Of a DNA stretch of 12,730 bases, positions 1,375-4,555 are shown piece by piece; the first letter of the stretch is position 1, and each line of letters begins with the position of its first letter. The translations under genes and the position numbers were made by a program. Origin of the DNA: Gemmatimonadota bacterium (lineage in GTDB: Bacteria > JBHIER01 > G020348925). The notes under the pieces were generated by a model. It was not told where the DNA came from, made no database searches, and saw only the letters and a program-made list of their open reading frames with translations. Location of the stretch: contig CP070758.1 of assembly GCA_020348925.1 (NCBI GenBank), positions 4,857,341-4,870,070 of the forward strand, in the 5' to 3' direction.

Positions 1375-2061
1375 TCAGGAGGATCCTTCTTCCTCCTTCT
1401 CTTTCTCTTTCTCCTCTTTCGCCTCACCCTTCTCGATCACTTCAGGTTCTTCAACCTCTTCTTCTTTTTCCTCCTCTACCGGCACAGCCTCTTTTATAAC
1501 CGTTGGCGGAACAACCGTGACCACGGCTCGCTGTGCCTCTGTTAAAACGCGCGCTTTCTCCACGGTGATATTCTCAACGTGGATTGAGTCACCCACATCC
1601 AGATTCTCAATGTTGAGCTCAATATGCTCCGGAATGTTCGTCGGTAAACACTCAACCTCTATCTTATGCAAAATATGCTGAACGATCCCTCCCTTCTCCC
1701 TGACACCGATCGGTGTTCCGATAAGTGTAACCGGAATCTCCAATTGGATATTCTCAGTCAGTGAGATATGATGTAAGTCCACATGGAGCAGATCTCCTCT
1801 CACTGGGTCTCGCTGCATCTCTTTAAAGATCACTTTCCGATCTTTGCTTTTCTCACTACCCAGCTGAAGCGTAATAAGCGCCGTATCTCCGTGTATTGAA
1901 TGGAGAAGGGTGGTTAAGTGTTGGGAATCAATGGCAAGTGGTACGGTCTCCTCACCCCTTCCGTATAGGACGGCATGGGTCTTACCGTTCCTGCGCATAC
2001 TCTTGGCAAATCCCTTTCCGGTCTCACTTCGCTTTTCAGCCTTCAATACAACATCAAGCAT
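1375..2061 (-). CDS. rplY: 50S ribosomal protein L25, long Ctc/TL5 form
   Basis: L25 binds 5S rRNA in the large ribosomal subunit. At 228 aa this is the two-domain form (called Ctc in Bacillus, TL5 in Thermus), not the about 95-aa form of E. coli. Residues 1-95 are the 5S-binding domain, with the typical RSETGKGFAKSMRRNGKTHAVLYG segment in two parts near 11-35 and FKEMQRDPVRGDLLHVDL near 79-96. The middle, about 100-185, is the TL5 beta domain (IPVTLIGTPIGVREKGGIV, HIELNIENLDVGDSIHV). From about 194 to the end the chain is almost only Glu, Lys and Val, a long acidic low-complexity tail of the kind many L25/Ctc proteins carry. The ATG at 2061 has AAAGGAGAG close upstream. It starts 23 bases after the end of the prs reading frame, so the two are probably co-transcribed. 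L25 may be stress-induced, as Ctc is in Bacillus, but nothing here shows that. Confidence 0.96.
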   Translation of the reverse strand: MLDVVLKAEKRSETGKGFAKSMRRNGKTHAVLYGRGEETVPLAIDSQHLTTLLHSIHGDTALITLQLGSEKSKDRKVIFKEMQRDPVRGDLLHVDLHHISLTENIQLEIPVTLIGTPIGVREKGGIVQHILHKIEVECLPTNIPEHIELNIENLDVGDSIHVENITVEKARVLTEAQRAVVTVVPPTVIKEAVPVEEEKEEEVEEPEVIEKGEAKEEKEKEKEEEGSS

Positions 2062-2084: not shown

Positions 2085-3017
2085 TTAATCAAAGAGTGAA
2101 CTGATGGAACGTTCCTCGTGAATTCTCAAAATAGCCTCTCCCAGAAGTTCCGCCACAGAAAACACCATGACCTTTGGACTCCTCTTTTCTTCAGGGACAG
2201 GGATTGTATTGGTAACAAATAAACGCTTAATGGACGAATTCTCAATTTTTTGAACGGCATCACCCGACAGGACGGGATGTGTGCACGCGACATAAATCTC
2301 TTGTGCGCCTTACTTCTCCAAGGCCAGTGCCGCTTCAATTATTGTGCCACCTGTATCTATCATGTCATCTCTGATCAAGATGTTTTTCTTATCAACTTCA
2401 CCGATAATATTCATGACTTCAGCCACATCCGGCTTGGGCCGACGTTTATCCACAAGAGCCAGACCGGCCCCGAGACGTTTCGCGTAGGCTCTGGCCATGT
2501 CGATGCTCCCGGCATCAGGTGCCACCACGACGAGATCGGATATCTCCATATCTTTGAGATATTTACTGAATACGAGGGACGAATAGAGATGATCAAAGGG
2601 GATATTGAAGAATCCCTGTATTTGAGCGGCATGGAGATCCATGGTCACAACTCGATCCGCACCAGACGTGGAGATCAAATCTGCCACCAATTTCGCTGTG
2701 ATCGGAACACGTGGCTGGTCCTTCCTGTCCTGGCGAGCATATCCGAAGTACGGGATGACGGCTGTCACTTGCTTGGCAGAGGCTCGCTTCACAGCATCGA
2801 TCATAATGAGCAGCTCCATCAGATTGTCCGTTGGAGAATGGGTCGATTGGAGGATAAAGACATCGGCCCCGCGGACGTTCTCACAAATCTTAATGGATAT
2901 CTCACCGTCGCGAAAGCGTTTGACCTCAGCCGATCCCAGAGGTATTTTCAAATACGCGCTGATCTCTTGGGCCAACGTGACGTTCGCGTTCCCGCAAAAA
3001 AACTTTATACCATCCAC
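2085..3017 (-). pseudogene. prs: Ribose-phosphate pyrophosphokinase (PRPP synthetase) with an internal in-frame TAA
   Basis: Prs makes PRPP from ribose 5-phosphate and ATP, feeding purine, pyrimidine, His, Trp and NAD synthesis. The reading frame from GTG 3017 gives 235 residues with class I Prs motifs: FRDGE near 35-39, RQDRKD at 95-100, the catalytic DLHA at 127-130, and the PRPP loop DDMIDTGGT at 217-225. Codon 236 (2310-2312) is TAA. The same frame then continues without gap as GAQEIYVACTHPVLSG and on to EERSISSLFD and a normal TAA at 2085-2087, 310 residues in all, close to the family's about 315. So this is one nonsense codon, not a frameshift. The stop aligns with a variable position just before the conserved Gly-Ala. 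The remaining 74 residues include conserved C-terminal fold, so the short product would probably be inactive. No start with a Shine-Dalgarno is seen just after the stop. Sequencing or assembly error, recent mutation or readthrough are all possible. Confidence 0.9.
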
Positions 3018-3091: not shown

Positions 3092-3166
3092 TGGCTGGGG
3101 CGGGAGGATTCGAACCTCCGAATGCGGGATCCAAAGTCCCGTGTCTTACCACTTGACGACGCCCCA
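3092..3166 (-). tRNA. tRNA-Gln (anticodon UUG)
   Basis: Read on the minus strand this is a full cloverleaf of 75 bases including an encoded CCA. The acceptor stem TGGGGCG pairs with CGCCCCA, the discriminator is G and CCA follows directly. The anticodon stem is CGGGA/TCCCG with loop CTTTGGA, giving anticodon TTG. The T arm GGAGG-TTCGAAT-CCTCC is perfect, and the D arm contains the AAGTGGTAAGAC core. U1 and G73 are typical of glutamine tRNA. It lies 101 bases after spoVG and 74 before the prs start. Glutamine tRNA next to prs or ispE is also known in other bacteria. It may be processed from the longer transcript; I see no strong promoter of its own. Confidence 0.97.
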
Positions 3167-3609: not shown

Positions 3610-4476
3610 TCACTCCTCCTCTTGTGGATTGACCGGTTTTGTCACAAAAACATCCCATTCCGGGCTGCAAATCCGTTGAGCCGCTTTACGGGCCTCCTCC
3701 CAGGTCACAAAGAGACCGTAAGTTGTAGAACCGCTCCCGGTCATCGCTACCGCGGAAGCCCCCTCCGTGTGTAATACCTCTTTTGCTCTCTCAATAATGG
3801 GAAACCTCCGGGCCACCCCGCCCTCCAGATCGTTCGCAATCAAGAATTTAAGGCCATGAAGATGAACCCTCCCTTTGTAAGAAAGGCTTTTTAAATTAAC
3901 ATATTTACTGTTCTTTGTCAAGCTTATTTTTGCACTTTTATAGGCAGAGGCACTTGAGACCATCACCCTGGGATAGATGAGGACAAATCCTACGTCGCCC
4001 CAACCCGGGTTAAAATATTCGAGATCTTGCCCCCTCCCCCTGGCCAAGGCGGTCCCTCCCCTGAGAAAAAAAGGGACATCGGATCCAAGCTGTGCCGCAA
4101 GAGAAAAGAGTTCACTTGGTGAAACAGATAGATCCCAAAAGTTTACAAGACCCCTGAGCACTCCGGCACTATTACTGCTCCCCCCACCCATCCCCCCTCC
4201 CACTGGTATTATTTTATGAATCGTTATCTCAACCCCCTTTCGAATACCGTATGTCTCTCTCAAGAGATGTGCACTTCGGAACGCGAGGTTGGCCTCATCC
4301 TTCGGGACCAAAGGATGATCGCAACGGATCCGAATAGACCGAGGGTGGGACTTCAGTTCAATTTTGTCGCAGAGATCGACGGTCTGGAGAACAGTTTCAA
4401 TCTCATGATACCCGTCGGACCTTCGACCCAGGACCCTCAATCCGAGATTGATTTTAGCATACGATATGAGTTCCAT
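3610..4476 (-). CDS. ispE: 4-diphosphocytidyl-2-C-methyl-D-erythritol kinase
   Basis: IspE is the ATP-dependent kinase of the MEP (non-mevalonate) route to isoprenoid precursors, and belongs to the GHMP kinase family. From the ATG at 4476 the protein has 288 residues, near the family norm. The N-terminal AKINLGL gives the conserved Lys8. The ATP-binding glycine-rich loop PVGGGMGGGSSNSA is at 91-104, GSDVPFF supplies the catalytic Asp133, and MTGSGSTTYGLF near the C-terminus is GHMP motif 3. A longer frame with GTG at 4539 adds 21 residues (VYIQQGDRF...). I prefer 4476 because MELISYAKIN fits the family, although its Shine-Dalgarno is weak. It ends 3 bases before spoVG. The upstream neighbour is the DUF2723 gene, about 140 bases away. 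MEP-pathway use is usual for Gram-negative bacteria. Confidence 0.95.
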   Translation of the reverse strand: MELISYAKINLGLRVLGRRSDGYHEIETVLQTVDLCDKIELKSHPRSIRIRCDHPLVPKDEANLAFRSAHLLRETYGIRKGVEITIHKIIPVGGGMGGGSSNSAGVLRGLVNFWDLSVSPSELFSLAAQLGSDVPFFLRGGTALARGRGQDLEYFNPGWGDVGFVLIYPRVMVSSASAYKSAKISLTKNSKYVNLKSLSYKGRVHLHGLKFLIANDLEGGVARRFPIIERAKEVLHTEGASAVAMTGSGSTTYGLFVTWEEARKAAQRICSPEWDVFVTKPVNPQEEE

Positions 4477-4555
4477 GCGTTCCGGACTCCATTGTTTTCT
4501 CTTCAATATTAAAAATCGGTCTCCCTGCTGAATATACACTTTCCATCATTCCAGA

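Follow-up and report, generated by a model that had tools for sequence, protein, structure and literature searches.

The literature counts PRPP synthetases among the enzymes essential for life (PMC6332680). The prs gene found in the window (the whole 12,730-nucleotide stretch of DNA that was analyzed) shows full-length homology to the class I enzymes of B. subtilis (1DKR) and E. coli (4S2U), with all near-invariant residues kept, and differs from them by one in-frame TAA at codon 236. Local assembly errors and chimeras are a known problem of uncurated metagenome-assembled genomes (MAGs) and give rise to wrong protein-coding genes in databases (PMC7111523). The genome studied here is likewise a gapped draft MAG with several genes cut by a single stop and a chimeric-looking join in rpoC. 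The prs break differs in being confined to one codon.

The interrupted prs frame and its conservation

The prs frame is found on the minus strand at positions 3017-2085 of the window. Its translation spans 311 codons, of which a single internal one (2310..2312, codon 236) is TAA. The 5' part (2313..3017, 235 codons, GTG start at 3017) matches positions 2-234 of the ribose-phosphate diphosphokinase profile TIGR01251 (E = 9e-91). The 3' part (2085..2309, 74 codons plus the terminal TAA at 2087-2085, in the same frame) matches positions 237-309 (E = 1.7e-23), so that the 235- and 74-residue parts cover adjoining stretches of the profile. When the stop was read through as X, the product aligned end to end with residues 3-309 of B. 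subtilis Prs 1DKR (E = 1e-105). The locus has the full-length homology of a class I Prs (TIGR01251), and its reading frame is interrupted by the TAA at codon 236. Neither the open frame nor the homology flanking the TAA is ambiguous, and chance is not at issue. A first-pass annotation made from the sequence had placed a lone TAA at codon 236 (2310-2312), had the frame carry on as Prs to a second stop at 2085-2087 and had quoted Prs motifs, including EERSISSLFD. Translation confirmed the coordinates, the TIGR01251 matches on both sides bore out the continuation, and the motifs are found in frame.

The neighbors listed here are on the same strand. Downstream of prs is an intact ctc (bL25/Ctc, 1375..2061, by profile search). 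Upstream are an ordinary glutamine tRNA, tRNA-Gln(TTG) (3092..3166), and an intact ispE (3610..4539, by profile search). The genes ctc, pth, spoVG and ispE around prs form a common gene order.

We aligned the prs frame with Prs from 109 other genomes. No other member of the same phylum was among the comparison genomes; the nearest prs is approximately 64-66% identical, and viral contigs gave nothing closer. A stop at aligned codon 236 was found in none of the 109 relatives. This position is variable, with K in 21, R in 16, A in 15, N in 12, E in 10, H in 9, G in 9 and other residues in the remainder. None of the 68 near-invariant columns (at least 93% conserved) is altered in the window prs; changes in at least one of these columns are seen in 71 of the 109 relatives. 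After the stop, identity to the relatives is 0.496, a typical value next to the mean of 0.483 between relatives. Judged from these comparisons the gene is free of decay, its 3' part being as conserved as that of the relatives. The normal conservation of the 3' part indicates that selection acted on it up to the very recent past, or continues to do so. An in-frame TAG in the prs of one comparison genome (G002) turned out to be merely its terminal stop, and no internal stop in a full prs was found among the relatives examined.

Conservation of both parts would also be expected of a split two-chain Prs, in which two independently made chains (residues 1-235 and 237-310) associate. The chance of such an arrangement appears close to negligible. 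A frame scan found the first in-frame ATG, GTG or TTG after the TAA only at codon 48, and the lack of a usual start over this distance speaks against independent synthesis of a C-terminal fragment. The break falls inside the C-terminal phosphoribosyltransferase-fold domain, and the C-terminal domains of Prs form a dimer (PMC6332680). The enzyme is never split in the relatives (0/109).

Genetic code and readthrough of the TAA

Reassignment of TAA was considered and is contradicted by stop codon usage. In 2.0 Mb of the genome, 827 long open reading frames end in TAA (296), TGA (354) or TAG (177). Since 296 of the 827 terminate with TAA, this codon is a working stop. All three stops are also seen in the neighbors of prs, as the first-pass annotation had said of the flanking genes: TGA ends pth, ctc and ispE, TAA ends spoVG and LemA, and TAG ends a large membrane protein and LpxH. 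Its view that a changed genetic code is unlikely agrees well with the genome-wide counts.

Readthrough of the TAA, whether programmed or by a suppressor tRNA, would give a full-length Prs; the same annotation had raised readthrough as an option. The enzyme is required and many residues are tolerated at codon 236, both of which fit readthrough. We nevertheless regard it as very unlikely. TAA is a normal terminator in this genome, and the stop is not conserved in any of the relatives. Folding of the RNA at and downstream of the stop gave no significant structure relative to shuffled sequence (z = +0.57). A search for suppressor tRNAs, which had been proposed as a check, found no TTA anticodon among 38 tRNAs (tRNA family model, anticodons by ARAGORN), a list that is incomplete. 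The TAA might also be real and fixed, with this uncultivated bacterium, whose lineage has no relative among the comparison genomes, making its only PRPP synthetase by readthrough, perhaps as a way of controlling nucleotide synthesis; we consider this extremely unlikely. Readthrough and the split enzyme have nothing positive in their favor.

Some usual isoacceptors, e.g., Ile(GAT), Ala(TGC) and Glu(TTC), are absent from the tRNA set, which fits an incomplete draft.

Need for PRPP and search for a second prs

A real nonsense mutation of very recent origin, carried by the sampled population and either compensated or present only in dying cells, would account for a clean stop in a prs whose remainder is intact. 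Compensation could come from a second prs located where the assembly is missing sequence, or from uptake of nucleosides and amino acids. Some relatives carry two prs genes above the family cut-off, and the assembly is approximately 96% complete with gaps. Against this, only a single prs was found when the assembly was searched, so the other copy that the first-pass annotation had suggested elsewhere in the genome is not present in the assembled part. The de novo gene purF is intact and therefore PRPP is needed. PhnN is a known bypass enzyme; its match here is far under the cut-off (56.5 vs 156 bits) and was rejected as a bypass candidate, the model also scoring below the cut-off in most control genomes. 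With these points on both sides, we consider a real nonsense mutation improbable.

The draft genome and its other broken genes

The genome is presented as one 5.04 Mb contig. In the 2.0 Mb read, 103 runs of exactly 100 N were found, and the contigs between these joins are a few to tens of kb long. The window (4857341-4870070) lies exactly between two such runs (4857241-4857340 and 4870071-4870170) and thus corresponds to a single contig (12.7 kb) of a draft bin. The short contig that adjoins it (4854329-4857240) has the same 141 bases at both ends and may be circular or an artefact of the assembly graph. The repeat points to a de Bruijn assembly of short reads with k = 141. At 5023295-5026822 there is a run of 3528 N, which differs from the usual 100-N joins and may be a gap.

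A coding-potential scan of the 2.0 Mb found single in-frame stops in prs and in 18 further candidates. Seven of the 18 resembled one protein across the stop and were scanned against Pfam with X at the stop. One Pfam domain spans the break in five of the seven: a protein kinase (181466, TAG), a beta-lactamase-family hydrolase (5030479, TGA), a subtilase (67272, TAA), a metallo-beta-lactamase fold protein (791305, TAA) and a DUF4249 protein (3233606, TAG). In a sixth (907827, TAG) the stop lies inside a row of HEAT repeats, and the seventh, a FlgD-like protein (52940, TGA), was below the cut-off. At least six proteins besides prs are therefore cut by a single in-frame stop in 2.0 Mb, and TAA, TAG and TGA are all represented. 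These breaks could be errors or true pseudogenes.

As a control, the 2.0 Mb were searched by filtered tblastn with the proteins encoded in 400 kb of another complete genome and with those found around prs in relatives. The set covered 100 distinct conserved genes, two of which are broken, namely the RNA polymerase gene rpoC and, by its stop, prs. One more match was flagged on the plus strand opposite ispE; it was a shadow frame and was discarded. The first ~65 codons of rpoC, present as the only copy, are found in one frame at 4652975-4652781. The sequence then jumps to a second copy of approximately codons 25-65 (~40 codons, ~70% DNA identity), and the remainder continues in another frame beyond this second-copy join (region 4652560-4653060). 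On a plain reading this would be a misjoin of rpoC from two related organisms. Neither a broken prs nor a broken rpoC should be compatible with a living cell. The break in rpoC, an essential gene, indicates that the draft carries errors in genes of this kind.

The TAA in prs very probably reflects a local error of the sequence or assembly, or an unfixed variant that entered the consensus of a draft MAG. This explanation remains because a code change, a second prs and readthrough are all without support. The genome is an uncurated draft and shows further errors (100-N joins, single-stop breaks and a broken single-copy rpoC). Given these other broken genes, the TAA is most probably an error and not biology. 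The first-pass annotation had listed a read or assembly error among its explanations, and the breaks in other genes of the draft, rpoC included, support it. The stop, the single prs, the draft state of the genome and the other breaks are observed; an error or an unfixed variant at this very base is inferred. A single wrong base, or the entry of a rare variant into the consensus, would have turned a codon of prs into TAA at one position of the draft, and the organism almost certainly has an ordinary full-length class I Prs. Some points count against an error: most of the other single-stop breaks affect genes of dispensable kinds and may represent real pseudogenes, and the rpoC misjoin differs in kind from one substituted base. 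The interruption of prs is nothing novel. The case serves mainly as a caution: for draft genomes from metagenomes, a lone in-frame stop in an essential gene should first be set against the error rate of the draft. Here two of the 100 conserved genes compared (prs and rpoC) are broken.

Also counted against a plain error is third-position GC, which differs between the two parts of prs (0.574 in the 5' part vs 0.446 in the 3' part), a difference reached by only approximately 5% of the 109 relatives. This drop in GC makes a join close to the prs stop possible.
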